From: Chthoniobacter flavus
Lineage (GTDB): Bacteria > Verrucomicrobiota > Verrucomicrobiia > Chthoniobacterales > Chthoniobacteraceae
Length of the DNA: 49,811 nucleotides
Direction: 5' to 3'
Assembly (NCBI GenBank): GCA_945861435.1
Contig: CAMAUX010000040.1
Span: 1 to 49,811 of the forward strand
This document shows, piece after piece, positions 1-19,637 of this stretch (position 1 is the first letter of the stretch; each line of letters starts with the position of its first letter). A model generated the notes under the pieces. The model did not search any database, was not told the DNA's origin, and saw only the letters and a program-made list of their open reading frames with translations. Position numbers and translations under genes: made by a program.

Positions 1-2
1 AC

Positions 3-712
3 TCCAACTACACGAGCTTTTCGGGCACATCCGGTGCGACGGGTTACTACGAGTACTCCAACCACCGGGAATCCAACGGCTTCCGGGAGGCCAACAGCCG
101 CTACAGTCTGGACGGGCGGCTGTTCAAGCTGGTGCATTCCTTCAGTAAACCTCAAGGCAACGATGAAAACTTGTCGGATCTGATGTAAGTTTCTGTGGAA
201 ACGGAATTTGCAGCTTAAAATCATCCCGCTTCAAGCTCACCCGTTGAGTGAGTCTCTTTGAGCTATCTTCGAAGTCTGTAACGACATGGCTGTTACCCTC
301 AAGTACCCAGGCACCGATAGGACTCCGCAGTCGCCTGAATCCGGAGAGTTTCCAATGGCCCACGGAACGCACTGAATGCACGGACCACGCAACAGACTCT
401 CATCCTCCTCATTCCCCTCCATTCCTTCCGTGCGGTCTGTGACGGATTCCGTGGGCCGTCCATTCGCGTTTTTAGGGTAAAAGCACCCGGCTGGTGATCT
501 CGCTGGATGTTTATGAGGAAAAGCACCGCGAACCTAGTGGACTCACCCTGCCGGACTTCCGCTCCAACCCGAGGAAGACCACGCGTTTCAACGACCACTT
601 CGCACTGTCCCGGTATGCGGTTGCCGCCGACCTGCAGCACAACATCCAGCCCGGCCCGGACCTCTCCCTCACGGTCTGGTTCGCGCATCTCACCCGGCTG
701 AGTTGGCGGTAG
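3..712 (+). pseudogene. Gene tail split by a mobile repeat (beta-rich, possibly outer-membrane protein)
   Basis: The first segment (3-149) reads in frame to the sequence LFKLVHSFSK and then runs into a repeat that supplies a TAA at 186-188. The second segment (482-712) starts STRLVISLDVYEEKHRE and ends LTRLSWR before TAG. GTAAA occurs at 145-149 and again at 477-481. If the 327 bases at 150-476 and one GTAAA are removed, codons ...TTC AGT AAA AGC ACC CGG... continue in one frame, so a single gene was interrupted. The joined tail alternates polar and hydrophobic residues (for example ALSRYAVAADLQ, LSLTVWFAHL), as in beta-strands of a barrel. I do not recognise a family, and the barrel assignment is a guess. 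The 5' end lies outside the window. As it stands the encoded protein would lose about its last 77 residues and gain 12 foreign ones. Confidence 0.75.
150..476 (+). repeat. MITE-like repeat, copy A (327 bp)
   Basis: This copy is closely similar along its whole length to 13252-13571 and 17507-17831. It starts CCTCAA and ends TTTTTAGG, giving short imperfect terminal inverted repeats (CCTcAA against CCTaAAAA), and is flanked by the perfect 5-bp duplication GTAAA (145-149 and 477-481). It has no convincing open frame. Internal hairpins include GGCCCACGGAA (357-367) pairing with TTCCGTGGGCC (447-457), and a CTCAC/GTGAG stem near 237-253 that is present in all copies. Size, duplication and lack of coding capacity fit a non-autonomous transposable element. 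No matching transposase lies in the window. Confidence 0.82.
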
Positions 713-852
713 CAAGGGGGAGGTTTTGGAACCACCCCGAACCCACTGACCTTACCCGCAGCGCGAACCAACGCTTCCATAGTGTTGGTTTTGAACCCCG
801 GCTCCGCCACGACTGGGACGGCCTAGGTGGCAACAACACGCTCAGCGTCAGC

Positions 853-882
853 GCGGGTAGAAATATTGCCTGTCCCTATCGG
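853..882 (+). repeat. Short dispersed repeat, copy 1
   Basis: The sequence GCGGGTAGAAATATTGCC followed by TGTCCCTATCGG recurs in part at 941-965, 19979-20000 and, on the minus strand, at 19591-19612 and 32903-32926. The shared core is approximately TTTTGCCTGTCCCTATCGG. Nothing suggests coding. The rest of 713-1088 holds only this, the next copy and a large hairpin. Confidence 0.6.
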
Positions 883-940
883 CTCTTAATCCACGCTTTG
901 CTGAGAAGCTGGAGGACCTCATTGGCCTTTACCTCAAGAG

Positions 941-965
941 CAGAAATTTTGCCTGTCCCTATCGG
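941..965 (+). repeat. Short dispersed repeat, copy 2
   Basis: AGAAATTTTGCCTGTCCC and the following TATCGG repeat the core seen at 861-882, only about 60 bases away. Confidence 0.6.
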
Positions 966-967
966 AC

Positions 968-1028
968 CTCAAAACACACCAACAGGCCTCGCCCCTCAGT
1001 GCCATCCGGGCCTGACCGGTGTTTTGAG
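968..1028 (-). terminator. Large nested inverted repeat downstream of rpoN
   Basis: CTCAAAACAC (968-977) pairs perfectly with GTGTTTTGAG (1019-1028), and inside it CAGGCC (983-988) pairs with GGCCTG (1009-1014). The structure begins about 60 bases after the rpoN stop on the minus strand. It could end or protect the rpoN transcript. There is no clear T-run after it, so a Rho-independent terminator is only one reading; a structured RNA or a repeat end is also possible. Confidence 0.45.
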
Positions 1029-1088
1029 AGGCCCCGAGTCTGCGCGATTCCGCGCGGGTAGGGGCGCTTGGCAGGCCCATTCTGCGCG

Positions 1089-2486
1089 CTAGTAGCGCTT
1101 GCGCATGTTGCTGGGGAGGATGTTGAGCTCGGTGCGGTACTTGGCCACGGTGCGGCGCGCGATGGGGATGCCGCGGGCGGTGAGCATCTCGACGATTTCC
1201 TTGTCGCTGAGCGGATTGGAGGTGTCCTCGGCTTTGACAAGTTCGGCGATGGAACCCTTGACGCTGGTGTTGCTGAGGGTCTCGCCGTCGGCAGTCTGGT
1301 AGCCCGGAGTGAAGAAGTACTTTATCTCGAAGACCCCGTGCGGCGTGGCCATGTACTTCCCCGAGATGGCGCGGCTGACGGTGGTTTCATGGACGCCGAC
1401 GGCATCGGCGATCTGCACCATGGTGAGGGGCTTGAGGGCGCTGGGCCCGGATTCAAAGAAGTCCTTCTGCCGCGCGAGGATCTCGTGCGCGATGTTGGAG
1501 ATCGTCTGCTGGCGCTGGTGGATGCTCTTGATGAGAAACTTGCCGCTGCGGATTTTTTCCCGGATGTAGTCCTTCACCTCGGTGCCATTGCCATCCTGGG
1601 CCATGAGGTCCTTGTAAGTGTTGCTAATGCGGAGGTGGGGGATCTGGTCGCCGTTGAGCAGGATGTTCCATTCGCCGGAGACCTTTTCGATGCTGACGTC
1701 CGGGAGGACGTAGTTGTTCGGGTCTGCGGTGAAGATCTGGCCCGGCTTCGGATCGAGGGTGCCAATGAAGTTCGCTGCGCGTTGGACTTGGTCGACGCTG
1801 GTGCTCAGACGACGCGCGATTTCGGGGATGCGGTGCTTGCCGAGATCGTCGAGGTGCTTGTCGATGATGCGGAACTCAAGGCTGTGCTCCTTGCCGAGAC
1901 GGTGCAGTTGGATGAGGAGGCATTCGCGCAGGTCGCGGCTGGCGACACCGACCGGATGGAGGGACTGGATGATGTCGAGGACGCGCTGGAGGTCGTCGGT
2001 GCTGAGGCCGCTGCTCTGCGCCATTTCCTCGATGGAGCTTTGGAGGAAACCGTGGTCGTTGAGGTTGCCGATGATGAGTTCGGCGACTTTGAGGTCGTCG
2101 CCCTCGATGCCGTTGCCGGTGAGCTGTTCGAGAAGGTGCTGCTGGAGCGTCTCCTCCTTGACGAGGCTGTCGAAGTAGAACTGGCGGCGTTCTTCGTCTT
2201 CGGCGGAACGGGCGTAGCCAGCGTTCTGGGACATGTACTCGCGCCACTCTTCATCGAGCTGGCGGAGGACTTCGAATTCCTTGTCGAACTCCTCGGCTTC
2301 GCGCTGGCGGTCCTCGAGGCTGGGTTCGGTGGTCTCGATTTCGATGGTGGGGTTGGTCTCGATTTCCTGCTGGATCAGGTTGCGCAGCTCGAGCATGGGC
2401 ACCTGAAGGATCTGGAGGCTCTGCTGGAGCTGGGGGGCGAGGACCTGTTGTTGGGAGAGGCTCTGGGTCTGGGAAAGTCCGGCCAT
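1089..2486 (-). CDS. rpoN: RNA polymerase sigma-54 factor
   Basis: This 465-residue protein is full length for RpoN. The glutamine-rich region I that binds enhancer-binding ATPases is at residues 4-50 (LSQQQVLAPQLQQSLQILQ), followed by an acidic region II (about 50-110) and the core-binding region. A helix-turn-helix follows near 350-385 (IADAVGVHETTVSRAISGKY). The RpoN box ARRTVAKYR, which contacts the -24 promoter element, is near 443-451. The protein directs RNA polymerase to -24/-12 promoters and needs an activator ATPase for open-complex formation; none is encoded here. The start MAGLSQTQ is the natural region I start. It is transcribed alone on the minus strand, divergent from the gene at 2970. 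A long open frame on the opposite strand is a high-GC artefact. Confidence 0.97.
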   Translation of the reverse strand: MAGLSQTQSLSQQQVLAPQLQQSLQILQVPMLELRNLIQQEIETNPTIEIETTEPSLEDRQREAEEFDKEFEVLRQLDEEWREYMSQNAGYARSAEDEERRQFYFDSLVKEETLQQHLLEQLTGNGIEGDDLKVAELIIGNLNDHGFLQSSIEEMAQSSGLSTDDLQRVLDIIQSLHPVGVASRDLRECLLIQLHRLGKEHSLEFRIIDKHLDDLGKHRIPEIARRLSTSVDQVQRAANFIGTLDPKPGQIFTADPNNYVLPDVSIEKVSGEWNILLNGDQIPHLRISNTYKDLMAQDGNGTEVKDYIREKIRSGKFLIKSIHQRQQTISNIAHEILARQKDFFESGPSALKPLTMVQIADAVGVHETTVSRAISGKYMATPHGVFEIKYFFTPGYQTADGETLSNTSVKGSIAELVKAEDTSNPLSDKEIVEMLTARGIPIARRTVAKYRTELNILPSNMRKRY

Positions 2487-2969
2487 GACCTGACGCTAGG
2501 CTGGGGGTGCAAACCGAAGCAAGCAGGAACCGCGCCAACATTTAATCAAAAGTTATCCCCCCTATGCGCTCCCCGGGACATTTCTCTCATGAATCGCAGC
2601 AGGACAAGGGGCGATTTTGGACTTTTTACCCGTCCAAAGGGACTTCTGAAGGGGGCCGCACTTTCATCCCATGCGCCGTCTGTCAGCCAGCCGAGGGGCA
2701 TCTCCTCTGCCGGTGGTCGGCGGGTGGCTCAAGGCGGGTGATGGCAGCGGGCTCCTCGAGGTGACTGCGTGACGCGGGGAAGGCGGAAGGGGGAATTCGG
2801 GGTGGTCGCCCCCGGCCCTGTGGGGAGATGACAGCCGAGCGGGTGCGTCGGCGAAGTCCGCAGGGTTGCCGGTGGTGAAGGCCCGCCGCTCGGAGATTTC
2901 CTTGAGTCCGGCTGTGGCGCGCCTGAAGCTGCCGTGCTCCGCCCCCCTCAGCCCCACCCAAGACATCCT
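2487..2969. other. Divergent intergenic region rpoN / GYF-YIP1 gene
   Basis: This 483-bp gap must carry the promoters of both divergent genes. It is GC-rich with scattered short palindromic bits. I see no convincing -35/-10 or -24/-12 pair, no RNA gene and no copy of the repeats found elsewhere. Confidence 0.4.
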
Positions 2970-3890
2970 ATGAAGTGGTATTATGAACGTGCCAGCCAGC
3001 AGGCTGGCCCAGTCTCCGAAAGCGAACTCGACGCGTTGATAGCGAGCGGGGAGGTGCGGATGGAGACGCTGCTTTGGAGAGAGGGGATGGCGGGTTGGGA
3101 GCCCATGTCGGTTGCGCGTCCCCCTGCCGATCGGAGCACATTCGCGCCACCGCCACCGACGCCGCCACCGACGCCGCCACCGACGCCGTCGCTGGCTCCG
3201 GCTGTCGGCGCTGCGGGGGGGATTTTGGAGGGGCTTAATCCCTACGCGATTCCCCAAGCGGATTTGCGTGGGGTTGAGGTGGCGGTGGAGCGGGATGGTC
3301 CGGCATGGGAGCGGCGGGCGGAGATTGGCTGGGTGACTGCGGCTTTTGAAACGGTGAAGGCGGTGCTGCTGGAGCCATCGGCTACTTTTGCGCGGATGAA
3401 ACGGGAGGGCGGGATTGGGAGTCCGTTTCTTTTTCAGCTAATCCTCGGATCGCTGGGCGGGTTGGCCTCGGTTTTTTACCAGATGCTCCTTTCCCTGATT
3501 TCCACCAAGGGGACGGGCCGGTTTGAAGTGGTTGTCGGGCTCGGGGTGTATGCGGTGATGATGCCCCTGCTGGTGGCTGCGGGAGCGTTTGTCGGCTCGG
3601 GGATTTATCATCTGGTGCTGCTGATGTTTGGGACGAAGCAGCCCTTCGAGGCGACCTTCCGCACGGTGTGTTACACGGGCGGCGCGGTGGCGGTGCTTCA
3701 GTTGGTGCCCGGCTGCGGAAGTCTGGTGGCGGGGGGGTGGGCTCTGGTGTGTTATTGCATCGGGTTTTCGAGGGTGCACGCGTTGACCATAGGCAGGGCG
3801 GTGGTGGTGGTGCTGCTGCCTTTGCTGTTGTGCTGCGCGATGGTGGGATTGATCGCCGCGGGGGTGGGGTTTTTCGCTGCAAGGACTTGA
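2970..3890 (+). CDS. GYF-like domain, Pro-rich linker and YIP1-type membrane domain
   Basis: The start is taken at MKWYYERASQQAGPV, since the upstream in-frame extension is Pro/His-rich and unlike any domain. Residues 1-50 form a GYF_2-type domain (WYY, GPVSESELDAL, TLLWREGMAGWEPM), a proline-binding fold common at the N-terminus of PVC membrane proteins. Residues about 60-75 are a PPPPTPPPTP linker. Residues about 150-303 hold four to five hydrophobic segments (near 151-177, 184-220, 232-267 and 277-303) arranged as in YIP1-family proteins. The protein should sit in the inner membrane with the GYF domain in the cytoplasm. The role is unknown; it may organise other membrane proteins. The next gene follows after 34 bp. 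Confidence 0.8.
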   Translation: MKWYYERASQQAGPVSESELDALIASGEVRMETLLWREGMAGWEPMSVARPPADRSTFAPPPPTPPPTPPPTPSLAPAVGAAGGILEGLNPYAIPQADLRGVEVAVERDGPAWERRAEIGWVTAAFETVKAVLLEPSATFARMKREGGIGSPFLFQLILGSLGGLASVFYQMLLSLISTKGTGRFEVVVGLGVYAVMMPLLVAAGAFVGSGIYHLVLLMFGTKQPFEATFRTVCYTGGAVAVLQLVPGCGSLVAGGWALVCYCIGFSRVHALTIGRAVVVVLLPLLLCCAMVGLIAAGVGFFAART

Positions 3891-3924
3891 GCGGGTTTGC
3901 CCGCACGCAATGGGAGGCAGTTTG

Positions 3925-4320
3925 ATGTGGCGCAGGTTGAAGCCCGGCGAACTGGATCACGAGGTGGTGTGGCTCGGCGTTTCGCTCGCGTGCGCTGCGC
4001 TGGCCTTCGCGTGGGTGGGGTTTGGGTTGCCGGGGCCTTCGTGTGTTTTCCATAAAGTCACCGGGTGGCCATGCCTCACATGCGGGAGCACGCGCTGCGT
4101 GCGTCTCCTGCTGCAGGGAGCCTTCGGTGGGGCGTTCCGGATGAATCCGTTCTTCTTCACCTGCCTTGTCGGCGTGGTGGTCTTCGACGTGTATGCGGTG
4201 GTGGTGCTTCTCGGGAGGCTCCCGCGATGGCGGCCGGAGCGGGTGCCGTTGTGGCTGAGGTGGATATTGCTGGCGGCGCTGCTGGTGAACTGGGCGTGGC
4301 TGGTGGTTGCCGGGGTCTGA
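3925..4320 (+). CDS. DUF2752 family membrane protein
   Basis: The start at 3925 is preferred over the in-frame ATG at 3910 because GGGAGG lies 7 bases upstream of it. The 131-residue product has three hydrophobic segments (about 14-36, 72-95 and 108-128). It carries the DUF2752 signature C50-L-T-C53-G-S-T-R57 after the first one, followed by a basic/hydrophobic helix and MNPFFF. The family is a small integral membrane protein of unknown function, common in PVC and Bacteroidota genomes and often encoded beside GYF or YIP1-type membrane proteins, as here. Confidence 0.8.
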   Translation: MWRRLKPGELDHEVVWLGVSLACAALAFAWVGFGLPGPSCVFHKVTGWPCLTCGSTRCVRLLLQGAFGGAFRMNPFFFTCLVGVVVFDVYAVVVLLGRLPRWRPERVPLWLRWILLAALLVNWAWLVVAGV

Positions 4321-4390
4321 GCGGGGTCGTGGCTCGGGGTTTTGAAGGGGCCGTCCACTGCGAAGTGCGCGGCGTTTGAACCTGTGTGCC

Positions 4391-5197
4391 ATGAAAACAG
4401 TGTATGGAATGGGTGTATGGGCGGGTGCGGCTGCGGTGCTTTTGCACGAGCCGCATGGAGTGCAGGCGACGCAGGCTTTGCTGGTGGATGATGCGCGCAC
4501 GCTCGGCGCGCTTCATGCCCGGGTGCGCTTCGGCGCGGGGTCAGGCTTGGAGGTGTGTTCGAAGGGGCCGGGCCGGGTCTACCTGCGCTTCGATCTCCGT
4601 GCGGTGCTTCCCGAGGCGCTGCGTCCGGAGGCGTTGGGAAAGGCGACGCTGCGTCTTTATGTGCGCCGGCTTCCCGTGCCTGGCCCGTTGGAGGTGCGTG
4701 CAGTGAAGGCTCCATGGGACGAGCGTTCGATCACGCATGTGTCCGCTCCCGAAAGTGCTTCGGAGGCCGGGGAGTTGGTCCATCTGGAGGCTCCGCTGCA
4801 GCGGCGGTTTCTCGCGGTGGACGTGACGGCGCTGGTTGTGGGCTGGCTGCGGGATCCCTCCAGCAATCACGGTCTCGTGCTGCTGCCTGCCGGCGAGGTG
4901 TCTGTGGCATTCGATAGCAAGGAGGCGCTGGTGGCGGGACATGCGCCGGTCCTCGATCTGGTGCTGTTGCCTTCGCCGGGAGTGGATGGAGGTCCCGGCA
5001 TTGCGGGGCCAGCGGGTCCGGCGGGAGTGGTTGGTCCTGCTGGTCCTGAGGGTGCACCCGGTCCGGCCGGACCGATGGGGCCTCCGGGACCAGTGCTGAC
5101 GCGGGTGCCTCCTCGCGGGGATCTTTCCATGGGGCCGTTCACGAACGATCCGCAGGCAGGCAGTGGTCCGCGGGGCGATGCAGGTGTGGTGTTTTAA
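4391..5197 (+). CDS. Secreted DNRLRE-type protein with collagen-like tail
   Basis: The start at MKTVYGMGVW gives a signal peptide (residues about 1-26) and a 268-residue protein. Residues about 30-190 resemble the DNRLRE domain, a beta-sandwich of bacterial surface proteins (YLRFDLRAVLP, KATLRLYVRRLP, RRFLAVDVTALVVGWL, NHGLVLLP). Residues about 195-235 are around a dozen Gly-X-Y triplets (GPAGPAGVVGPAGPEGAPGP and on), a collagen-like stretch that could form a trimeric stalk. The short tail GPFTNDPQAGSGPRGDAGVVF has no anchor motif I recognise. The next gene begins 16 bp downstream, so the two are probably co-transcribed. The function is likely structural or adhesive at the cell surface; no enzymatic residues are visible. 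Confidence 0.75.
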   Translation: MKTVYGMGVWAGAAAVLLHEPHGVQATQALLVDDARTLGALHARVRFGAGSGLEVCSKGPGRVYLRFDLRAVLPEALRPEALGKATLRLYVRRLPVPGPLEVRAVKAPWDERSITHVSAPESASEAGELVHLEAPLQRRFLAVDVTALVVGWLRDPSSNHGLVLLPAGEVSVAFDSKEALVAGHAPVLDLVLLPSPGVDGGPGIAGPAGPAGVVGPAGPEGAPGPAGPMGPPGPVLTRVPPRGDLSMGPFTNDPQAGSGPRGDAGVVF

Positions 5198-5213
5198 AAA
5201 CCCAACCAGACTC

Positions 5214-8200
5214 ATGAAGATCCGGGGTGGATGGAAAGTGGCAGGGATTGCGTTGTTGATGGGGGCTGTGCTTGTGGAGGGGCCGCCTGTCTTTGTCGGG
5301 GCCGCTCCTCCGCGCTGGTGGGCGGGAAGAGGGGTGCTGGAGCCGGGTGCGCCCGCCGAGGATGACGCGCCCGCCAACCAAGGGCAGGCCAAGCACATGG
5401 CGGCCTCGGCGGTTGCGGAGATGGAGCGGGAGTTTGCGGGAGGCGCGGGGCCGGCGTTGCGCGCGGCGATCTCCGGTTGGAGCGTGCCGTCGCTTGGGGG
5501 CGGGAGCGTGGTGGCGCGGGTGACGGATGTGGGAGACGATTTTGCGCCGGTGAATGTAGGGCAGCTCAAGGCGCTCGCTCTGCCGTTTTATGACCGCCTC
5601 ATTTCACTCCATCACACGGAACGTTATCCGTGGGGAGGGAGGGTGGCGGATGATTTCGGGGTGGTGAGCGTGGGGGATCTCAAGGGGCTTTTCGGCTTTG
5701 AAATTCTGAACGCCCAACCGCCCGTCATCGACCCGCCTGGCGGGAGCTTTTTTGCGGCGCAGTCGGTGCGCATGAAATCTGCGGAGCCCGGTGCGCGCAT
5801 TCATTACACGACCGATGGTTCGGACCCTGCGGAGTCCGCGCAGAGCGTGGTTTCGGGCGGTGTGGTGCCGCTTGTTTCCGATGCGCTTCTGCGGGCGGTG
5901 GTGCGGGTGGGCGGACGCGCGCAGAGTGCGGAGGCACAGGCGCGTTTCCTTATCGATATCCTGCCGGGGATCGACTCGGACGGAGACGGGCTCTCGGATT
6001 ACGACGAGGCGTTCGTCCTCAGCACGCGGGCGGATCTGGTGGATACCGATGGCGACGGAGTGCCGGACGCGGAGGAGTTGCGGCTGGGGACGAACCCGCT
6101 TGCGGCCGATAGCGATGGGGACGGAGTGCCGGATGGGGAGGATCTGTTTCCGAGTGATCCGCGGCGCAGCAGCGTGCTGCCGGAACTTCCGCAGATGGTG
6201 TTGGACGTGAGCACGCCCGTGGTGGGCGAGCGCAGCGTGTGGTCAGCAGCGTTAAACGATGCGGGCGAGGTCAGCTTCGGTATCGCGGAGCGGGGCGACA
6301 TGGTGGTGCACCGCTGGCGCGCCGGTTCCCGGCTCCCGGCCCTCGCGTATCGCGGAACAGCCGTCGGCTACGGCATGACTTTCCAGTGGTTGAACGCCGC
6401 GGGATCCGTGGCGGGGATTGGATGGAACGGGGGCGCCCAGGGACCGGCGGTCTGGCATCCCGGGACGGAGCGGCCTGCAGTGGAGCAGGCGTTGCCGGAG
6501 CCGGAGGATCGCGGGGGTATCGTGGCGTTGCGGGTGAACGGGTTCAACGAGGCTGGTCTCGCGTGGGGAAGTTGCACGCGGCCGCAGTTCGACAATGTGA
6601 GCGCCGGTCCGTTCGCAGATCCAAACTACGCGTTTGCTGGAGGACACCGCTGGCTGTATCGGCGGCCGGAACGGGAGATTCCGGGGGATGCGGACTGGCG
6701 GCTGCTGCGTTACGGGCCGTTGTTTGAGCCGCTCAGTGTCAACGCATCCGGAGCGGCCATTGGCAGTCACTGGAGCGACGGGCGCGTTTCGATTCGAGCG
6801 GACGCCGTTGCCGAGGGGAATGTGTTTCACCGGTTTGAAGGGGCGCATCTGGCGGGGCTCTCCGATGACGGAACAGTCTTGGGATTGAGCCGGGACGGTC
6901 TGTTGGACTTCGAGCGTGAGTGGCTTCCGGCGGATGCGCTGCATCCCTTTGTGAGCACGGTGGCTGATCCGGCGCGGGTGCCGCTCCTGGAGCTTCTGCC
7001 GGAGCGGTTCCGGCGGCAGGTGGCGTTTGTGGATGAGCAGGCGGGTGTGCTCATGAATTCGCGCGGGGTGGCATTGGTGCAGGCCAGCGCGTGGAGCGGG
7101 CCGGAAGATGGTGCGGAGTGGACGCCGGCACAGGTGCTTGTGGATCTGCATGGAGGGCGTCTGCTGGCCACGCCATGGCTGACGCCGCCGCTGGCGATGA
7201 ATGCGGATCTCGCCATGGTGCGGCTTGGGAGACGTCCTTTGTCGCAGCCTGGCGGTGGCAGCTATCTTGCCGCCGAAGTCTTGCTGCCTCTCGAGGTGAT
7301 GGTCGATGGAGACCATGACGGACGCATGAGTTACAGCGATCCCGCGGTTGCGGATGCCGATCGCACCAGCCCTGAGCGGCCCTTCGAGTTCTGGGTGAAC
7401 AATGATAACGACATGGCGGCGAAGGTCGACGGGAACGATTGGGAGGAGGACGATTATCCCGGCGACCGGGATCGCAACGACGAGGTGATCCGGTGCAGGC
7501 GCGATCTCGAGGACTTCGCGCGGTTGTGGGTGAGCTTCAAAGGGCTGGGGTCGATGGTGGGCAGGCCCGGGGTGGAGTTCCGGTTCGAGCTGCGGCCTCC
7601 GGTGGGGGATCAATGGACGAAGGAGGACGGCGCGCCAGCAATCCGGCTTTATCATGCCTGCGAGAAGGACGGCGGGGTGGGGTACCTGTTCGACGACACG
7701 GTGTCGTGGCAGCAGGTGGGGCCGGAGGAGGGAGGGACGCCGTTTGGGCGGGCGCTGGGGTTGGTGGATCCGTCGCGCGCATGCGCGCTGCCCACCGGGC
7801 GAGTGGAGCCTGTGTGGCAGCCGCCGACGGAGCAGGACCCGTTCCGGCACTTTCTGTTTGAGGGGGTGGGGGAGGGGCGCGGGCGCCTTGTGCTCTGCGT
7901 GTATGAGGGCGGATTGAAGGTGGGCGAGTATCCGCCGGTGCATCTTGTGCTCAAACCGGTGCACGAACTTTTCGAGCGCTGGAGCGTGGGCTCGGCTGGC
8001 ACGAGCGGCGTCGACGGGAAGCTTAAGCCTGCGGCTGTTGCGCAACCCCTGCGCGTGCTGCCGCTGCCCGCGCATGAAGCGGAGCGGGACTACGTGCTGC
8101 TCGTGCACGGATGGAACATGGCGCCGCTGGAGAAGAGGCAGTTTGCGGAGACGGCTTTCAAGCGGCTCTGGCACATGGGATACCGCGGAAGGATCGGTTC

Positions 8201-9116
8201 TTTCGAGTGGCCGACGTACTACATCAGCAGTTTTCCCGGGCAGGATTTGTACCTTGGATCGCCGCGGTTCTCGCTGGGCTCGTTGTGGACGGTGTTCAAC
8301 AAGGACAACTTTGATGAGAGCGAGCGCAATGCATGGCTCTCGGGAGCGGGCTTGCTCAACTGCGTGGAGCAGTTGAACCGGCGCTACAAGGGCCGGGTGC
8401 GCGTGCTGGCGCACAGCATGGGCAACGTGGTGACGGCGGAGGCCCTCCGGAAGGCCGGGCGCAAGCAGGCGATCCACACATGGCTCGCCTCGCAGGCGGC
8501 CATCACCGCGCACTGCTTTGATCCCGGGTCGCAGTGGATGGAGCGCATCCTGATGTGGCCCGTCACACCCGATGTGTATTCCCACGCATGGTCGCCCGAG
8601 GCGAGCGGCCCGCCCCATGCGTGGCCGGAGTCGCAGGCCTCCTATCTTTCGCCCGACTACCTGCTCGGGGCGGCGGGGCGCTTCGTGAACCTGTACAACC
8701 CCGGGGATTACGCGCTGGGCAAGAACGCGTGGCAGGTCAACCAGCAGATGAAACCCGACACCTTCTACAGCTACAAACAAGATGCGGGCTTCGTGAAATG
8801 GGAGGGCCTGCTTTCAGGCAGCCGGGTCCTGGAGTTTGACGAGCACCGCTTCGAGGCCATGGCCTTCGCCGCGCAGGCGCGGGGCTGTGCACTGGGGCAG
8901 ATGGGCGATGCGCGCGGGGTCTTCACAGCCGATCATTCGCTCAATGTGACCACGCTCTTTGCGCCGAGCGTGGGCGGGGATTCTTTCGCCGAGCACAAGT
9001 ACCACAGCGGTCAGTTTCGCGGCACGTTCGCGCAACGCTGGCGTTACTGGGCCGCTGTACTCGGGCACTCCTCCATCCGCTCGGGACATCTTTATGCTGA
9101 ACCTCCTAAAAAATAA
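5214..9116 (+). CDS. Large secreted alpha/beta hydrolase with chitobiase-like and calcium-binding repeats
   Basis: The start is at MKIRGGWKVAGIALLMGAV (signal peptide about 1-31), giving 1300 residues. Residues about 170-250 resemble the chitobiase/hexosaminidase C-terminal domain (PGGSFFAAQSVRMKSAEPG, IHYTTDGSDP). Residues about 253-315 contain three thrombospondin type 3-like calcium motifs (DSDGDGLSDYDE, DTDGDGVPDAEE, DSDGDGVPDGED). The middle (about 330-690) looks like a repeat-rich beta domain. A very acidic segment lies near 700-775. The C-terminal third is an alpha/beta hydrolase: VLLVHGWN near 960 (oxyanion side) and the nucleophile elbow AHSMG near 1066. It is probably an extracellular esterase or lipase; the substrate is unknown. 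The following gene overlaps by 23 bases, so the two are translated together. Confidence 0.78.
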   Translation: MKIRGGWKVAGIALLMGAVLVEGPPVFVGAAPPRWWAGRGVLEPGAPAEDDAPANQGQAKHMAASAVAEMEREFAGGAGPALRAAISGWSVPSLGGGSVVARVTDVGDDFAPVNVGQLKALALPFYDRLISLHHTERYPWGGRVADDFGVVSVGDLKGLFGFEILNAQPPVIDPPGGSFFAAQSVRMKSAEPGARIHYTTDGSDPAESAQSVVSGGVVPLVSDALLRAVVRVGGRAQSAEAQARFLIDILPGIDSDGDGLSDYDEAFVLSTRADLVDTDGDGVPDAEELRLGTNPLAADSDGDGVPDGEDLFPSDPRRSSVLPELPQMVLDVSTPVVGERSVWSAALNDAGEVSFGIAERGDMVVHRWRAGSRLPALAYRGTAVGYGMTFQWLNAAGSVAGIGWNGGAQGPAVWHPGTERPAVEQALPEPEDRGGIVALRVNGFNEAGLAWGSCTRPQFDNVSAGPFADPNYAFAGGHRWLYRRPEREIPGDADWRLLRYGPLFEPLSVNASGAAIGSHWSDGRVSIRADAVAEGNVFHRFEGAHLAGLSDDGTVLGLSRDGLLDFEREWLPADALHPFVSTVADPARVPLLELLPERFRRQVAFVDEQAGVLMNSRGVALVQASAWSGPEDGAEWTPAQVLVDLHGGRLLATPWLTPPLAMNADLAMVRLGRRPLSQPGGGSYLAAEVLLPLEVMVDGDHDGRMSYSDPAVADADRTSPERPFEFWVNNDNDMAAKVDGNDWEEDDYPGDRDRNDEVIRCRRDLEDFARLWVSFKGLGSMVGRPGVEFRFELRPPVGDQWTKEDGAPAIRLYHACEKDGGVGYLFDDTVSWQQVGPEEGGTPFGRALGLVDPSRACALPTGRVEPVWQPPTEQDPFRHFLFEGVGEGRGRLVLCVYEGGLKVGEYPPVHLVLKPVHELFERWSVGSAGTSGVDGKLKPAAVAQPLRVLPLPAHEAERDYVLLVHGWNMAPLEKRQFAETAFKRLWHMGYRGRIGSFEWPTYYISSFPGQDLYLGSPRFSLGSLWTVFNKDNFDESERNAWLSGAGLLNCVEQLNRRYKGRVRVLAHSMGNVVTAEALRKAGRKQAIHTWLASQAAITAHCFDPGSQWMERILMWPVTPDVYSHAWSPEASGPPHAWPESQASYLSPDYLLGAAGRFVNLYNPGDYALGKNAWQVNQQMKPDTFYSYKQDAGFVKWEGLLSGSRVLEFDEHRFEAMAFAAQARGCALGQMGDARGVFTADHSLNVTTLFAPSVGGDSFAEHKYHSGQFRGTFAQRWRYWAAVLGHSSIRSGHLYAEPPKK

Positions 9117-10116
9117 AATCCGCACGCTGCTGCCATGGACCGTCCTGCTCCTCACCCTTGTTCTCTGGATGGAGGCCGAGCCCGTGGGTTTGTGGTGGGC
9201 TCGTCTTTCCCAGAATCCGGACGATCACGGGCGCGTGCCGAGTGCGGCGGATGCGTCGCGGTACAACTCCCAGCTGAGGGAGGCGGCGCGCAGCATGCGC
9301 CAGCCGCTGCGCTTCTGGGGACGGGTGGCCGATCAGGACGGCGGGCCGATGGAAGGTGTGAAGGTTTTTTACAGGGCGCAACTGGTGGATCTGCCATGGA
9401 TCGGCGCCATGGGCACGCACGAGGAGTACGGATCGACGCTGAGCGGGGCCGACGGTGCCTTCTTCTTCGACGCGGGCCGCGGCATGCGTGTCGAGCTCAC
9501 CTACCTGATCAAATCCGGCTACCAGCTTGCACAGGACACCAATCGTTTCTTCGAGTACCCGTCCACAAAGCCCGGTGCGTCGCAGGATCCGGCAAAGCCC
9601 GCCCGGTTCGTGCTGGTGCACGAGTCGGCTGTGGAGCCGCAGCACTCTTTCAATGTGGGTTTTCATGTGCCGTGCGACGGGACCCCGTGCACCGTGGATC
9701 TCAAGCGGGGCAAGGCCACACCGGAGGGGCAGCTGCGCGTGGTGCTGACCCGCAATCCGCTGCGCGTCGAGGGCATCGAAACTTTCGATTGGTGGATGCG
9801 GTTGGAGATGATTGGCGGGGGTCTCGTCGAGGTCGAGCCGCCGCTGGCGGTGAAGGCGCCTGAGGAGGGATACAAGGAGCAGATCAGTTACGAGTTCACC
9901 GGTGCGAAGAGTCCCTTCGATCCCCGCTGGTGCTACTCCACGAGCCGGTACTTCTATTGCAGGACTGCCGCGGGCGAGTACGGCCGGATGCGCATTATCG
10001 CGGACCTGAGCAGCCGGGAACCCCCGGTGCGCCTTGAGGTGGAGTCCTGGCTCAATCCGTCTGGCAGCCGCAACCTGCAGTTTGAAAAGTCCAAGGCACT
10101 ACCGCCCGCGCCTTGA
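9094..10116 (+). CDS. Membrane-anchored protein of unknown function, partner of the large hydrolase
   Basis: The start at MLNLLKNKIRTLLPWTVLLL overlaps the end of the preceding gene by 23 bases, and longer in-frame starts would lie deep inside it. The 340-residue product has one N-terminal hydrophobic helix (about 8-27), which would be an uncleaved anchor or signal. It is followed by an exported region with a carboxypeptidase-regulatory-like beta segment near 70-130 (FWGRVADQDGGPMEGVKVFY, then GADGAFFFDAGRGMRVEL). Cysteines in HVPCDGTPC and RWCYSTSRYFYC suggest disulfides. No enzyme family is recognised. The overlap implies a role tied to the large hydrolase, for example as chaperone, anchor or immunity-type partner; this is inference. 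Confidence 0.65.
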   Translation: MLNLLKNKIRTLLPWTVLLLTLVLWMEAEPVGLWWARLSQNPDDHGRVPSAADASRYNSQLREAARSMRQPLRFWGRVADQDGGPMEGVKVFYRAQLVDLPWIGAMGTHEEYGSTLSGADGAFFFDAGRGMRVELTYLIKSGYQLAQDTNRFFEYPSTKPGASQDPAKPARFVLVHESAVEPQHSFNVGFHVPCDGTPCTVDLKRGKATPEGQLRVVLTRNPLRVEGIETFDWWMRLEMIGGGLVEVEPPLAVKAPEEGYKEQISYEFTGAKSPFDPRWCYSTSRYFYCRTAAGEYGRMRIIADLSSREPPVRLEVESWLNPSGSRNLQFEKSKALPPAP

Positions 10117-10301
10117 CTCTGAGATTGGGGATGCGGGCCGATGGCCTCGGCTTGCCCGGAGGAGGGCTTGCTCGCAGCGGGGTTGTTTGCAGCTTTGACT
10201 GTCCGTCCGTGGAGGAACGGTCGCGGGCTGCGGGCTTGCCCGTGTGGCGTGTGGTGGACTAAAACGATCGGCGCAGTCACCCCACACTCCCACCACCCAC
10301 T

Positions 10302-11648
10302 ATGAACCATCATGCGTGCTCGTTTGTTTCCGCGCTGGCGTTGATCGCCGCGCCGGCCATCGCCCAAGACCAACCCGCCCCGGCCCAGCCCGGTGGTAAA
10401 CTGCCCAAACCGGTGAAAATCCAACTGGTCAAGGTGGCCGACGGTCTTGTTGATCCGGGCCATGTGGCGGCGCCGAAGGACGGTTCGGGCCGGCTCTTTG
10501 TATGCGAACGCAATGGGTTGGTGCGGATCATCAAGGACGGCAAACTGCTGGCGAAGCCGTTCCTGGATCTGAAGGACAAGACGCTGAGTTCCTTCCTCGA
10601 GGAGGGTCTGTACGCGATCGAGTTCCATCCGAAGTTCAAGGAGAACGGTCTCTTTTACGTGAGCTACTCGGACCTCTGGTTCAACGGCGCCACGATGCTT
10701 GTGGAGTACAAGGTCAGCGCCAAAAACCCGGACAAGGCGGATCCGGAGAGTGCGCGTGTGGTGATGCAGATCGATTATCCCTACTGCAACCATCACGGCG
10801 GCAAGATGGCGTTCGGTCCGGACGGCTACCTTTACATCGGTGTGGGCGATGGCGGCTGGGAGGGTGATGTGATCCATGCAGGACAGGACCTGCACACGTG
10901 GCTTGGGAAGATGCTGCGCATCGACGTCAACACCACCTCCACCGACCGTGGCTACGGGATTCCGAAGAGCAACCCGTTCATCACTCCGCTGCAGCAGATG
11001 ACGCTCTTTGGTGTGTCCGAACTGCAGTTCTCCAAGATTCATCCGAAGGCGAAGCCTGAGATCTGGGCCTATGGTCTGCGCAATCCGTGGACCTTCTCCT
11101 TTGACCGCAAGACGGGGGATCTTTTCATCGCCGACGTGGGTCAGAACCACTGGGAGGAAGTCGATTTCCAGCCCGCCTCCAGCAAGGGTGGCGAGAACTA
11201 TGGGTGGAAATCCATGTGCGGCAGCCACCCGTTCCCGATTGAGCTGGAGAAGGGTGCGCCGCGGGTCGGCGTGCTGCCGATCGCGGAGTACAGTCATGTG
11301 GACCAGGGCATCTGCGTGGTCGGCGTAGGAGTCTATCGCGGCAAGGACTATCCGAGCCTCGAAGGCACGTACTTCACGTGCGACTGGGGCTCGGGCAAGG
11401 TGTGGGGCATCCAGCCCGACCCGAACTCCCCCAGCAAATGGCAGATGCAGGAACTGCTGGATCTCGACACGCCAATCCGCCCGACCGGCTCTGGCGAAGA
11501 CGAGGCCGGGAATCTTTACATCACCCACGCCACAGCGAACTACGGCGGCCCTGTGGATCCCGCCCAGAATGAAAAGGGCGCGGTCTGGAAGATCGTTTCT
11601 GCTGACAAGGTGCCCGCGGGCGCAGCGATTGCGCCGCTCCAGAAGTAA
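10302..11648 (+). CDS. PQQ-type sugar (glucose/sorbosone) dehydrogenase-like protein
   Basis: The 448-residue protein has a signal peptide (about 1-21, ending AIAQD). The rest fits the soluble PQQ glucose/sorbosone dehydrogenase beta-propeller: GSGRLFVCERNGLVRIIKDG near 63-82, a YPYCNHHGGKMAFGPDGYLY segment with the conserved His and Gly-rich strand, WLGKMLRIDVN, IWAYGLRNPWTFSFD and ADVGQNHWEEVD. In known relatives a bound PQQ oxidises aldoses or similar substrates in the periplasm. It has no CXXCH heme motif, so electrons would pass to a separate acceptor. The copper protein encoded 97 bp downstream is a natural candidate. The actual substrate cannot be told from sequence, and cofactor binding is inferred from the family. 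Confidence 0.88.
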   Translation: MNHHACSFVSALALIAAPAIAQDQPAPAQPGGKLPKPVKIQLVKVADGLVDPGHVAAPKDGSGRLFVCERNGLVRIIKDGKLLAKPFLDLKDKTLSSFLEEGLYAIEFHPKFKENGLFYVSYSDLWFNGATMLVEYKVSAKNPDKADPESARVVMQIDYPYCNHHGGKMAFGPDGYLYIGVGDGGWEGDVIHAGQDLHTWLGKMLRIDVNTTSTDRGYGIPKSNPFITPLQQMTLFGVSELQFSKIHPKAKPEIWAYGLRNPWTFSFDRKTGDLFIADVGQNHWEEVDFQPASSKGGENYGWKSMCGSHPFPIELEKGAPRVGVLPIAEYSHVDQGICVVGVGVYRGKDYPSLEGTYFTCDWGSGKVWGIQPDPNSPSKWQMQELLDLDTPIRPTGSGEDEAGNLYITHATANYGGPVDPAQNEKGAVWKIVSADKVPAGAAIAPLQK

Positions 11649-11745
11649 GCGCGCATCCGCATTCCTTCAACGCGGCCGGGCGTGCATCTGTTGCGCCCGG
11701 CCGCTTTGTGTCACGCCCATGCAATTTGAAAACCTGCAGCTCCCC

Positions 11746-12354
11746 ATGAAGAACCGACTCCTTTGCCTTGGCCTCGCTGCTGTGTGCGGCGTGGTGTTGT
11801 CCGACCGCATCGCCTTTGCACAAGCACCCGACCCGCATGCGGCGCACGCGGCAGCCTCCGGATTGAAGAAGGAGCTGATCGAGGGGCTGACGGCTGCGGA
11901 TTTCCTGCGTCTGTCGAAGAAGCCGAAGACGGTGGAGTTGGTGATCGTGGCGGCATGGACGCCGGACAATTACGGGATGAACTTCAACGGGTTCTCGCGT
12001 GGCAAGGCGGTGTACACAGTTCCGCAGGGGTGGAATGTGGAGGTCACGTTCATCAACCCAAGCCCCGTGCCCCACAGCGCGGTGGTGGTGGAGCGCGAGA
12101 TGACCGCGAAGTTTCAGGTGGGCGAGCCCGCGTTCAAGGGGGCTGCGGTGCCGAGCGCTCTCACCGGGATCAGCTCTGCCAAGGCCGCGTTCGCATTCAC
12201 GGCCGACGAAGCGGGCGAATACGCGATCGCCTGCGGATTCCCCTCCCACGCGGTTGCGGGCCATTGGGTCGCGCTGGAGGTGAGCGCCTCCGCCACCGCA
12301 CCGAGCCTCAAGCTCGGGGACGCTCCAGCCACACCGGCATCGCCGGCTCGTTAA
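11746..12354 (+). CDS. Sulfocyanin-like type 1 copper protein
   Basis: The start at MKNRLLCLGLAAV gives a signal peptide (about 1-25) and 202 residues. From residue 63 it matches the sulfocyanin/cupredoxin pattern: NYGMNFNGFSRGKAVYTVP near 75-93, VTFINPSPVPHSAVVV with ligand H110, and the C-terminal loop C163-G-F-P-S-H168-A-V-A-G-H173-W. H110, C163 and H168 are the expected equatorial copper ligands. The fourth position, usually Met in this loop spacing, is His173. The role is periplasmic one-electron transfer, probably from the PQQ-type dehydrogenase encoded just upstream (97-bp gap, same strand). A Pro/Ala-rich tail (about 183-202) is probably disordered. Confidence 0.82.
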   Translation: MKNRLLCLGLAAVCGVVLSDRIAFAQAPDPHAAHAAASGLKKELIEGLTAADFLRLSKKPKTVELVIVAAWTPDNYGMNFNGFSRGKAVYTVPQGWNVEVTFINPSPVPHSAVVVEREMTAKFQVGEPAFKGAAVPSALTGISSAKAAFAFTADEAGEYAIACGFPSHAVAGHWVALEVSASATAPSLKLGDAPATPASPAR

Positions 12355-12427
12355 ACAGGGCGGGGCTTTTTCGAATTCCGTCCCGGCAGCCTGCAATTCG
12401 GGGCTCGTAATAGGAGACGTATCTAGC

Positions 12428-12433
12428 TATAAT
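12428..12433 (+). promoter_or_regulatory. Possible -10 element upstream of the rod-like gene
   Basis: TATAAT stands 26 bases before the ATG at 12459, in a locally AT-rich stretch between GC-rich genes. No good -35 hexamer is seen at the right distance, so this is suggestive only. Confidence 0.35.
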
Positions 12434-12458
12434 CTGAACCAGTTAAAACCTGCTTTCT

Positions 12459-13172
12459 ATGATCGCCGGAATCTCCGCCACCCTGTCCGCGTTGCGCGCC
12501 GCTGAAACTCAGCAGGCCGTGACGGCAAACAACATCGCGAACCTGCTCACGCCGGGCTTCAAGTCGCGTCGGGTGGAGCTTGAGAGCCGTGGCGATGGCG
12601 TGGCGGTCGGGGCGGTGTCGGCCAGTCAGGCGCAGGGACCCCTGGCCCTCACCGGCAACCCGCTCGACCTCGCGGTTCAGGGTGGAGGCTACTTTGCGGT
12701 CGAAAAGCCGGATGGAACGCAGGCGCTCACACGCGCCGGCAATTTTCGCATTTCAGCCGATGGGACGGTGGTGACCCCGGATGGGTACCGGGTGACCGGC
12801 TTTCCACCGGCGCCTCCCGGGACGACCGGTGTGAATCTTTCTCCCAACGGCACGGGGACGTTTCAGACGCCCGGTGGTCCGGTGAATTTTCAGGTGCCGC
12901 TGGCGCGCGTGGCGAATCCGCAGGGATTGCGGAGTGCGGGCGGCAATCTGCTGGAAGCGACGCCTGCGTCGGGTCAGATCGAGACCGGGACGGCGGGGGG
13001 AGCGGGATTTGGCTGGGTGGTGAGCGGGGCGCAGGAGCTTTCCAATGTGGACATCATCGAGCAGATGGTGAGTTTGATTGAGGTGAAGGCCGCGTACATG
13101 GCGAACCTCAAGGCGCTCGGTGCCGCGGACGAGATGGCGGCTGTCGCGATCCGCTGGACGCGCGGCCGCTGA
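12459..13172 (+). CDS. Flagellar hook/rod family protein (FlgF/FlgG-like), orphan
   Basis: The 237-residue protein has both hallmarks of the flagellar rod/hook family. The N-terminal helix motif is at residues 20-40 (QQAVTANNIANLLTPGFKSR, canonical form ANNLANxxTxGFK). The C-terminal helix is near 200-230 (ELSNVDIIEQMVSLIEVKAA). Between them is a FlgG-like beta region (GGYFAVEKPDGTQALTRAGN, ISADGTVVTPDGYRV). In flagellated bacteria such proteins build the axial rod outside the inner membrane via type III export. No other flagellar gene is nearby, so this is a solitary copy. It may supplement a flagellar set elsewhere or be a relic; the sequence itself looks intact. Confidence 0.85.
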   Translation: MIAGISATLSALRAAETQQAVTANNIANLLTPGFKSRRVELESRGDGVAVGAVSASQAQGPLALTGNPLDLAVQGGGYFAVEKPDGTQALTRAGNFRISADGTVVTPDGYRVTGFPPAPPGTTGVNLSPNGTGTFQTPGGPVNFQVPLARVANPQGLRSAGGNLLEATPASGQIETGTAGGAGFGWVVSGAQELSNVDIIEQMVSLIEVKAAYMANLKALGAADEMAAVAIRWTRGR

Positions 13173-13251
13173 TAAACGGCGGGGTGCGTGTGCGGGGTCT
13201 CCGCATGGTGATGCCGCGGTTTGCTGATGGCGCGGCTCGTGTTTCCCTGAA

Positions 13252-13571
13252 TCTAAATGCGGCGATGCAAGTTTGTCGGATCTGATGTGAGTTTCTGTGG
13301 AAACGGAATTTGCGGCTTAAAATCATCCCGTTTCAGGCTCACCCGTTGGGTGAGTCTCTTTGAGCGATCTTCAAAGTCTGTAACGACGTGGCTGTTACCC
13401 TCAAGTATCCAGGCACCGATAGGACTCAGCAGTCGCCTGAACCCGGAGAGTTCCCAATGGCCCACGGAACGCACTGAATGCACGGACCACGCAACAGACT
13501 CTCAGCCTCCTCAATCCCCCACACTCCGTCCGTGCGGTCCGTGACGTGGGCCGTCCATTCACGTTTTTAGG
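13252..13571 (+). repeat. MITE-like repeat, copy B (320 bp)
   Basis: This copy is closely similar to copies at 150-476 and 17507-17831 and ends in the same TTTTTAGG. It is flanked by CTGAA (13247-13251) and TTGAA (13572-13576); shifted by one base, TGAAT occurs on both sides (13248-13252 and 13573-13577). It fills the gap between two convergent genes, just 20 bp from the end of the lyase fusion. It contains the hairpin CTCACCC-GTT-GGGTGAG and the arms GGCCCACG/CGTGGGCC. It could act as a bidirectional transcript end here. Confidence 0.8.
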
Positions 13572-13591
13572 TTGAATGTGGTGGGGTGCGC

Positions 13592-16500
13592 CTACCAGAG
13601 GATTGGCTGGGTCACGCCGATGTTGCGCTGGACCTCCGGATCGGTGGGATCTGCGGGGAGTTTTTTCCAGAGATCGATATAGGTCGGTTCGCCGAACTGC
13701 AGGCCGGCGAGGAGCAGACTGGGTTGGCGAGCGGGCCAGCCCTCCCACGCCTGCACGTCCGGCTTGAGGGTCCACTTGGATTTGTCGGCGAGGAACGGGT
13801 AGAGGAATGCCACGGCTTTGCGGATGCAGCGTCCGTCGGGCAGGGTGAATTCCCAGAGATTGTCGCCGATGGTGGACAGCACATGGCAAAGCAGCACCAT
13901 GTTATCGAGCTGGAAGATGGAGTAGCCGTACGGCTTGGTGCGCGCGAGTTCGAGGGGGAATCCGCCGTCCTCCGCCATCTGCCTGGCAACGAACACCTCC
14001 TTGTACTGTTTGCGGCACGCGGCGAGTTTTTCCTGATCGCGCGTGAAGTCCGCATAAACCGCGAGCTGCAGGTAAAAGGCGACGGAGTGGTTGTTCTTGG
14101 CGGCGGCTTCTTCCCTCCCGTTTTTGCTCGTGACCATCCACGTGGCGAGTTCGCGAAACCATGCGCGGAGATCCTCTGCCATGCTCGCAGGGAAGACTGG
14201 GGACTTTTCAAGAACCCGGACCGCCGCGGGGATCTCGATGAGATGAAGGGCGTCGATGATCCCAATGCCGCGTCCCGGTGAGACGCCCGGGACGGCTTGG
14301 GCGAAGTTGAGGTGCGGGGTCATGCGCAGCTTGGGATCGAGGAAGAAACAGCGCAGGAGTTCGGCGGCCTTGACCACATACTGGTCGTCGCCAGTGATCT
14401 TGTGCGCAGCGGCAAGCGCGGCGACGGAGTCCCGCAAGGTTTTTACGACGAGACGGTGCTGGCTGAAGTTGTTGGGATTGGTTTCGCCATCGCGACGGAT
14501 GTAGGGGAGGCCGTCCGGCTTTGTGGGATCGGGCCACCAGTAATCGCCGTTGGAATAGAAGTCATTCGGGCCGCCTTCGCTGAGTTTTGCAGGGAATGCG
14601 GTGATGGTGACGGCGGGCTGCGTGAGGGCTTGGGCGGCGGCTTTGAGGATGCGTTCGCGCTCTAGGGGAGCGAGGTCGAGGGTGGCCTTGGGTTTCACCG
14701 GGGCGTCCTGTGTGCCCGGCGTTTTGGCGGATCCTGAGGCGGCGGTGCCGGGCGCGGAATCGGTCTTCGGCTTTGTCGTTTTGGAACCGGTGCCGGATTT
14801 GGGTTTGGGATCGCCGGTCGGTTTGCCTTGGGGATCTGCGGCGGGTTTGTTTGTTGGGGCGGGAGCGGCCTTGTTTTCGACGTTGAGGAACTGGGTGCGG
14901 CGGCCTTCGGAGAAGGCGCTGAAGACGAGTTTGTGGCCGGAGATGCGCGCGCTGATTTGTGCGCGGCCATTGTACATCTGGACGACGCGCGAGCCTGTGG
15001 AGGTGCCGAGGTTGTCGAGGAGCTGGCCTTCGCCAAGCATGCCAAAACGGACGACGCTCGCGGAGTCGAGGCAGGGCACACCCTCGGCGTCGAACATGCG
15101 GGCTTCCACCGTGACGGTACCGTCCTTCTGAGCGATCTCGGAAAGCGTGAGCTTCGCGGGTTTGCCCCATGGCTTGGCCTGGTAGGCGACGGAGATCTCA
15201 TCCGCGATCTCGCCAGCGGGCGTGCGGGCGACGGCGCGCAGTTGGTTGGGGCCTTCGTTGAGCTGGACCATCCAGCGGAGGCCGGCGGCCGGGAAGTCTT
15301 TGCTGTCGCGGTTCTTGGTGCCGAGGCTCTTGCCGTCGGCGAAGAGCTCGACCTGTGCGCAGTTGGAATAGACGCGGACTTCCTTTGCCTCGCCCGGTTT
15401 GCCCCAGCGCACCGCCCATTCATGGCCGAGGAGGCGAATCATGGGCTTCTCGGACCAGTAGCTTTGGAAAACGTAATAGCCTTCCTTTGGTATGCCATCG
15501 CGGCTGACGAGGCCCTTCTGGTTCACGCGGGGCACGGGGTTCTCCGGCCGCAGCGGGGTGGCGAAGTCCTTGAAGATCCACTGGGCGCTGCCGGTGAGCG
15601 ATGGGAGGGATTCCTGTTCCTTGAGATGCCAGTCGAAGAGGTTGACCATGTAACTCTCCGACCAGTCGCCATCCTTGGACATGCGCACCTTGCCGCCGGA
15701 TTTCTTGTAAGCCTTGCCCTTTTCGGCGGTGCCTTCGCCGACGGCGACCTGCTCGATCATCTTCTCGGGCTCCTCGGAGAAGCGGCGTGCATGGCTGTCG
15801 CCGCCCCATTCCGCGTGGAAAAAGCGCGGCGTGTCCTTGAGAGCTTTTTCCGCGGCTGCTGCGTATTCGGTATAGCGTCCGGAATACCAGCCGGCCCAGA
15901 TGCTGGGGGAATAGACGTCGACGATGTCCTTGCAAAAATCGCAACGGCGGATGGTGGTGAGGCGCGAGGGGTCGAGCTGGTGGGCGAGCGCGTGGAGTTC
16001 CTTCATGAAGGCGCGGATGGCGTCCTTGTCCTGCTTTTCGAAATCGCCGGGCCAGTCGTTTTCGTTGCCGAGGCCCCAGAGGATGACGGAGGGATGGTTG
16101 CCATGCTGGCTGATGAGAGCCTTGAGCATGTCGCGGCACTGCTGTTGGTAACGGTCGCCGCCGATGCCGCCGCGGCACCATGGGATCTCCTCCCAGACGA
16201 GCAGTCCGAGCTCATCGCAGAGTTGGAGAACAAGAGGTGCTTGTTGGTAGTGGCCGAGGCGCACGAAGTTCGCGCCCATTTCCTTGATGGCCACAAGGGT
16301 CTGGCGGACGACCTCGTCGGGCACGGCGGCGGCGACTCCGGCGTGGTCCTCGTGGTAATGCGTGCCTCGGAGCAGGAGACGTTCGCCATTGAGCTTGAAG
16401 GGGCCGTGCTCGACCCATTCAAAACTGCGGAATCCGAAGGGTTCGGTGACGAGTTGCTCGCCGTGCTTTGAGGTGAGCGTGAGCACGCATTGGTAGAGAG

Positions 16501-17305: not shown

Positions 17306-17506
17306 GGGGGGTGGTGATGATCATTGCGCGCCTCGCCCAGAATGGATGAGGGAGAGATTGCTACTCACAATCGGGCCCGCGGTCGGAACGAAGAACCGCG
17401 CCGGGGGGAGGCTCGATTTGAGAGGGGTGGGGCGCAGTATTAGCGGGGGATGCCGGGAGGAAGCAACCGCCTGATGAGCCTGTGCGATGAGGCAGATTCT
17501 CTTGAA

Positions 17507-17831
17507 CCTCAATGCGGCGATGAAAACTTGTCGGATCTGATGTGAGTTGCTGTGGGAACGGAATTTGCAGCTTAAAATCATCCCGTTCCAGGCTCACCCG
17601 TTAGGTGAGTCTCTTTGATCCATCTTCAAAGTCTGGAACGACATGGCTGTTACCCTCAATTACCCAGGCACTGAGAGGACTCAGCAGTCACTTGAACCCG
17701 GAGAGTTCCCAATGGCCCACGGAACGCACTGAATACACGGACCACGCAACAGACTCTCAGCCTCCTCATTTCCCCCCCATTCCTTCCGCGCCGTCAGTGG
17801 ATTCGGTCGGCCGTCCATTCACGTTTTTAGG
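17507..17831 (+). repeat. MITE-like repeat, copy C (325 bp)
   Basis: This is the third full-length copy: it starts CCTCAATGCGGCGATG, ends TTTTTAGG, and is flanked by perfect TTGAA duplications (17502-17506 and 17832-17836). It occupies most of the 627-bp gap between the sulfatase stop and the start of the lyase fusion (both minus strand), so it may separate their transcription. The right-hand hairpin arm is more degraded than in copy A. Confidence 0.82.
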
Positions 17832-19612: not shown

Positions 19613-19637
19613 CTTCGGAGAACACCTGCGTACAAGA

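Follow-up and report, generated by a model that had tools for sequence, protein, structure and literature searches.

IS1380-family ISs have ends that begin CC, and they generate a short target duplication of 4–5 bp. ISEcp1, ISPme1 and IS1247 are given as members of this family (PMC9330008, PMC11578231), and one of these papers describes a MITE of Paracoccus yeei, MITEPye1, that was assigned to IS1182-family ends and is present at one to three copies in P. yeei chromosomes (PMC11578231). We have analyzed a stretch of 49,811 nucleotides from Chthoniobacter flavus (contig CAMAUX010000040.1, henceforth the window) that contains a MITE assigned to another IS family. MITEPye1 and the present element are alike in being short and free of a transposase, in having terminal repeats and direct repeats, and in the assignment of an IS by the ends. 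They differ in the IS family itself and in copy number, with about 50 copies per genome here as against one to three. Moreover, the parent IS type of the present element is tied to it by 103 bp of homology in addition to the ends. An IS with the ends of this MITE has a DDE transposase profile like that of IS1380-family ISs and falls nearest to them, but the MITE has no transposase, its terminal inverted repeats are degenerate (10/16 matching in the consensus) and the related transposase scores beneath the NCBIfam equivalog cut-off. A MITE derived from an IS is a known kind, and as such an ordinary element. What this case offers, in the poorly studied phylum Verrucomicrobiota, is a description at the level of single bases in which copies and duplications are accompanied by an empty site and by a probable parent IS. 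Judged by titles and the opening of abstracts, searches of the open-licence literature turned up no description of this MITE family or of its IS1380 parentage.

The MITE, which we assign to family A, is full-length in the window, occupying 327 bp at positions 150–476 of the forward strand. It begins CCTCAAGGCAACGA and finishes TTCGCGTTTTTAGG, and copies of GTAAA, read from the sequence, stand on either side at 145–149 and 477–481 of the same strand. An earlier sequence-only reading had placed these boundaries exactly to the base, and had pointed out that removal of the element restores a reading frame. Both observations are borne out. Excision of 150–476 together with one GTAAA brings codon AAA (147–149) against AGC (482–484) with the frame kept. 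The terminal inverted repeats of this copy match at 9/16 positions, and the longest open reading frame lying nearly within it encodes 79 amino acids (142–381, minus strand). Two more full-length copies are found on the forward strand of the window, at 13252–13571 with flanks CTGAA/TTGAA that are alike at 4/5 positions, and at 17507–17831 with TTGAA on both sides (17502–17506 and 17832–17836). Repeat matching also reveals a fragment on the minus strand at 19655–19755, which corresponds to positions 204–308 only of the element and has neither end.

A restored frame is by itself weak evidence for an insertion. When the flanks of 28 copies were joined, the longest stop-free stretch across random points averaged 173–364 amino acids; for the junction in the window the figure was 139 amino acids, compared with 173 at random points. 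Chance frames are long, and the spanning-frame test of these copies is therefore uninformative. It is a homologue that establishes the insertion. Genome G027, from another genus, contains an uninterrupted TonB-dependent receptor frame of 777 codons from stop to stop, with TonB beta-barrel (E = 3.9e-31) and Plug (E = 1.1e-10) domains in its protein. The window has the 5′ part of this gene at 3–149 on the forward strand, its start being off the contig, with 44/49 residues identical to G027, and the 3′ part at 482–847 on the same strand. The identity to G027 is 92% at the protein level over 121 residues. At the DNA level 136/149 bases are identical over window positions 1–149, and a second match begins at window position 479 and reaches 847, with 307/391 identical over its full length, counting gaps. 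The two pieces of G027 share just AAA (L188 1719–1717), and there is one GCAAA at the junction. The empty site at the level of DNA is that of G027, at one locus. Receptor matches were obtained in 7 of the 40 genomes searched, including G000, the window's own genome (5.35 Mb in 105 contigs). In the six others the matches span the junction with no internal stops, and neither homologues carrying the repeat nor homologues split into two halves were seen among them. The earlier suggestion of an interrupted gene is borne out, and the check proposed for it, a search for the uninterrupted gene in relatives, gave that gene in G027.

In the window the receptor frame is terminated 12 codons into the inserted MITE. 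The frame downstream had been said to be still open, and this holds as far as the TAG at 710–712 and not beyond. The homology after the TAG aligns poorly over ~713–760, continues in another frame at 766–846, and stops at ~847 beside another repeat. Just past this point, at 859–977, a 36-bp repeat (..TTGCCTGTCCCTATCGG..) is present twice in imperfect form, and a similar sequence recurs at other loci that hold MITE copies.

G000 contains some 50 copies of elements of this family. At least 44 pieces match it (40 of 85 first-look candidates scored), and a model of its core, discussed below, has at least 52 matches (76 of 1175 first-look candidates scored). The pattern of the 5′ end is matched 46 times and that of the 3′ end 57 times, a number that includes members of a second family, compared with 0 for the reversed-pattern control of each. 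From 41 aligned copies we derived a consensus of 324 bp, CCTCAATGCGGCGATG...CCATTCACGTTTTTAGG. Duplications were counted for 43 two-ended copies, the last bases of several being extrapolated from the alignment; copies that are one-ended, truncated or interrupted by an IS were omitted (L014, L032, L035, the outer copy of L038, and L053–L061). An exact 5-bp duplication flanks 20/43 copies, where 0.86 would be expected from re-pairing the flanks of other copies. The flanks are alike at four or more of the five positions in 30/43 copies (expected 7.31), and at three or fewer in 13/43. Where the duplication is exact, T occupies the second position in all 20 cases, A the fourth in 19 and A or G the fifth in 17. 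These copy counts refer to family A, other families being outside them. The element is therefore a MITE, that is a non-autonomous DNA transposon, being short, present in many copies and devoid of a transposase gene, with terminal inverted repeats and a target duplication. This agrees with its earlier description as MITE-like with a 5-bp duplication, and further copies with flanking duplications do exist in the genome.

When the 5′ end pattern was run over genome contigs it was found at 58 loci, of which the 32 examined are Chthoniobacteraceae and Spartobacteria records; matches scattered in unrelated bacteria were set aside. At one locus (L118) the same left end continues into a transposase whose frame is broken by two stops, and relatives of that transposase, sought with a 262-aa query, are present in 11/40 genomes of the family. 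Genome G032 has a complete IS of 1730 bp, with a 529-aa transposase starting at base 59 and the same ends as the MITE. The ends of this parent type are CCTAAA...TTTTTAGG, and in the G032 IS the terminal repeats match at 14/16 positions. The MITE consensus aligns with the first 103 bp of this IS without gaps (74/103 identical, score 61), and with its last 17 bp at 15/17 positions. By this ungapped alignment the IS-derived left part of the window copy is 150–252 on the forward strand, including the first ~15 codons of the IS transposase, and TTG at 208–210 on that strand stands opposite the ATG start codon. The right end at 460–476, also on the forward strand, is CCATTCGCGTTTTTAGG, akin to the right end CCATTGCCGTTTTTAGG of the IS. 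Between these parts there is no excess similarity, as consensus positions 106–300 score 20 against the interior of the IS, whereas 30 shuffles averaged 20.6 and reached at most 28. The G032 transposase passes Pfam PF13701 (DDE_Tnp_1_4) with 74.2 bits against a cut-off of 34.7, and its best NCBIfam model is IS1380 NF033539 (E = 2.5e-40), with 138 bits against an equivalog cut-off of 180. In G018 an internally deleted IS of the parent kind, 793 bp long, is flanked by a perfect duplication, CTAAA/CTAAA. The G032 copy is flanked by TTTAT/ATTAG, with no matching duplication, and the flanks in G026 agree at 4/5 positions. The common ends and the homology over the left 103 bp thus indicate that the MITE derived from an IS1380-like IS, the probable parent type being the one present in these sister genomes.

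A search for a transposase gene with matching ends had been proposed; one is found in the sister genomes (G032) and was not detected in G000. There the 262-aa query gave no match to this transposase type from four candidates, and what the IS1380 profile yielded there was fragmentary or consisted of other proteins, all scoring under its cut-off. The transposase has probably been lost from this lineage, or is absent from the assembly. Several other sequences were considered and rejected. The full-length transposases of contigs C43 and C57, which are presumably IS4-like, match PF13701 weakly, and an IS1380-like fragment at C50:14435–14749 has just 23% identity to the G032 transposase. The second MITE family in G000 (163–164 bp) has ends of the same kind as family A.

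We consider it very probable that the MITE arose from an IS1380-like IS, was moved in trans by an IS1380-type DDE transposase, and so came to interrupt the receptor gene. The IS would have given rise to a MITE that kept its left 103 bp, extending into the first transposase codons, and its last 17 bp, with an unrelated middle. The transposase would recognize CCTMAA... and ...CGTTTTTAGG ends in trans, and insertion at 5-bp NTNAR-like targets would generate the duplications. One such insertion at 145–149 would then have broken the TonB-dependent receptor gene. The ends, the duplication, the empty site, the family and the homology with the IS are read from the DNA, and from these we infer which enzyme was involved and that it acted in trans. 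We have counted a number of points against this explanation. No such transposase was detected in G000, the resident fragments differ in their ends, the G032 IS has no duplication and a sub-cut-off NCBIfam score, the middle of the MITE is unmatched, and in the window copy the terminal repeats agree at just 9/16 positions. The resident fragments could indicate a different source for the enzyme, with the MITE moved by IS1380 elements of G000 and not by the CCTAAA-ended type. They lie at several contig ends, as a collapsed multicopy IS would give. Yet the resident elements have ends CCCGAATAAATCAC... with CTAA outside, compared with CCTMAA... and 5-bp NTNAR sites for the MITE, and over its left 103 bp the MITE is homologous to the CCTAAA-ended type. 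Mobilization by the resident elements therefore seems quite improbable, and they were rejected as the direct parent because of the different ends and the CTAA at the outer edge. It might also be argued that there has been no insertion at all, given that the assembly is repeat-rich and in 105 contigs and that the window begins inside the receptor gene. A chance repeat or an artefact of assembly is scarcely credible in the face of 46 and 57 matches to the two ends compared with 0 in the control, exact duplications at 20/43 copies and the empty site in G027, and we conclude that this is an insertion.

The core of the element lies at ~104–206 of the consensus and 255–355 of the window (forward strand). 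It has no match above shuffles in the interior of the IS, and a second genus of Chthoniobacteraceae (g4) has it in its MITEs. Its persistence in two genera could mean that we are dealing chiefly with a structured RNA or a regulatory module, conserved and riding in a transposon, with the core kept for RNA function. Where up to 76 candidates per genome were scored, the core model has at least 123 matches, in 10/40 genomes and 2/9 genera, some of which are the start of the IS. In addition to those in G000 there are at least 47 in G006, 8 in G024, 5 in G038, 4 in G020 and 3 in G012, and at least one in each of G027, G039, G034 and G032; on the same scoring none of the three congeners gives a match. 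The matches in G032, in G012:C8 and five of the eight in G024 overlap matches to the transposase start, and so are the start of the IS and not the core. The G027 copy was found by the model and missed in a plain DNA scan of relatives. We aligned 14 hand-picked sequences, five from G000 and nine from other genomes; 12 were taken from 59 representatives (69 distinct sequences, 80 matches), of which four plainly false ones were left unused, and two were added by hand. Three short hairpins in the core are kept at 89.0% of cells, compared with 27–47% when the partners are slid. Against a role as RNA, covariation in the core is no higher than in shuffles, with the score reached by 115/500 and the number of double-change pairs by 121/500. 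RNAalifold gives a weak fold for the core alignment, and for the copy in the window the folds are no more stable than those of shuffled sequences (z = −0.54 and −1.22). Rfam at gathering score finds nothing in window positions 1–20000, and in four relatives searched at E up to 1 it gives two weak matches (NEAT1 and snoRNA sR40), far below gathering scores. The first core hairpin also falls where the coding sequence of the IS transposase begins. As covariation is lacking, a conserved-RNA role for the core is unsupported, and we regard this explanation as unlikely. The IS1380-derived MITE remains our preferred reading.

The insertion had also been called recent, and for this part of the sequence-only reading there is no support. 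Of the 283 sites compared, 15 differ between the window copy and the consensus (5.3%; the range for the 41 copies is 2.8–10.6%). The copy most similar to it, among those compared, diverges by 6.7%, and the smallest distance between any two is 3.9% among the 38 of the 41 copies compared in pairs; all of these divergences exclude the length-variable columns 431–493. As there is no pair under 3.9%, and the receptor gene has further lesions, a recent insertion is unsupported. The family thus gives the impression of age and not of fresh activity. A separate observation concerns the receptor gene, for which G027, in another genus, has 92% protein identity while congener G003 has 58%. This suggests from sequence comparison that the gene has been horizontally transferred. 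Taken with the lack of core matches in the three congeners, it hints at exchange of DNA between these genera.

The ends of the elements are also associated with a group II intron. Its 5′ end is found five times in G000, each time one base beyond the end of an element. Six other genomes were searched with the 27-base start, allowing up to three mismatches, and gave three matches, two in G006 and one in G012, with none in G020, G024, G038 or G027. The junctions in G006 and G012 are also at such ends or close variants, and by eye that in G012 is apparently the right end of the IS itself. In all, 8/8 intron 5′ junctions found (L223–L230) are separated by a single base from the outer edge of an IS1380/MITE terminus, which reads ..GTTTTTAGG or a variant, and either end of the elements is used. 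This census of seven genomes, three with matches in two genera, covers introns that share this start. L070, the sole one of five loci scanned to have intron RNA matches (Rfam RF02005 and RF00029), encodes a group II RT/maturase (TIGR04416, E = 2.3e-116); the other junction loci have the first bases of the intron in common with it. In these matches L070 is like other bacterial group II introns, and the placement of 8/8 junctions one base beyond an IS1380/MITE end is unlike them. Class C introns have sites downstream of terminators. The upstream exons here differ in this respect, as four of the five folded (from eight junctions) are no more stable in their folds than shuffled sequences; the exception is L228, where there is a near-perfect hairpin (z = −6.09). 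The sequence is therefore a likelier cue for the intron than a terminator hairpin. On balance we lean towards a three-layered parasitism, in which an IS1380-like IS would breed MITEs that keep its termini, and the group II intron would home on ..CGTTTTTAGG N/GTGCGCC and its variants. If this is true, the intron uses the end of either a MITE or an IS, and each burst of transposition would provide it with fresh sites. The eight junctions are all compatible with such a scheme. The link between the position of an intron and the termini of transposons may surprise specialists, and searches of the literature, judged by titles and the start of abstracts, brought up no evident precedent for it.

A number of other repeats adjoin these elements in G000. 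Members of the second MITE family, ~163 bp with ends CCTAAAAACGGCGATGGGGCG...GGAAGTCCATTCACGTTTTTAGG, are present at L049, L050, L052 and L068. Their 5-bp flanks are identical at L049, where two tandem copies share one TTGAA, and at L052, and agree at 4/5 positions at L050. The copy at L068 has the group II intron on one side. The IS1380 elements at loci L042–L046, which lie at contig ends, are of another subgroup, whose termini are CCCGAATAAATCAC with CTAA outermost. The repeat ATTAATCCGGCCATTGAATACCCGCGGTAATGATGCG... adjoins a MITE copy in L020, is within one in L041, and adjoins an IS1380 fragment in L046. Some MITE copies are apparently split by other ISs, presumably IS1634-like and IS256-like, giving the pairs L060/L056 and L061/L053, and some of these are at contig ends.
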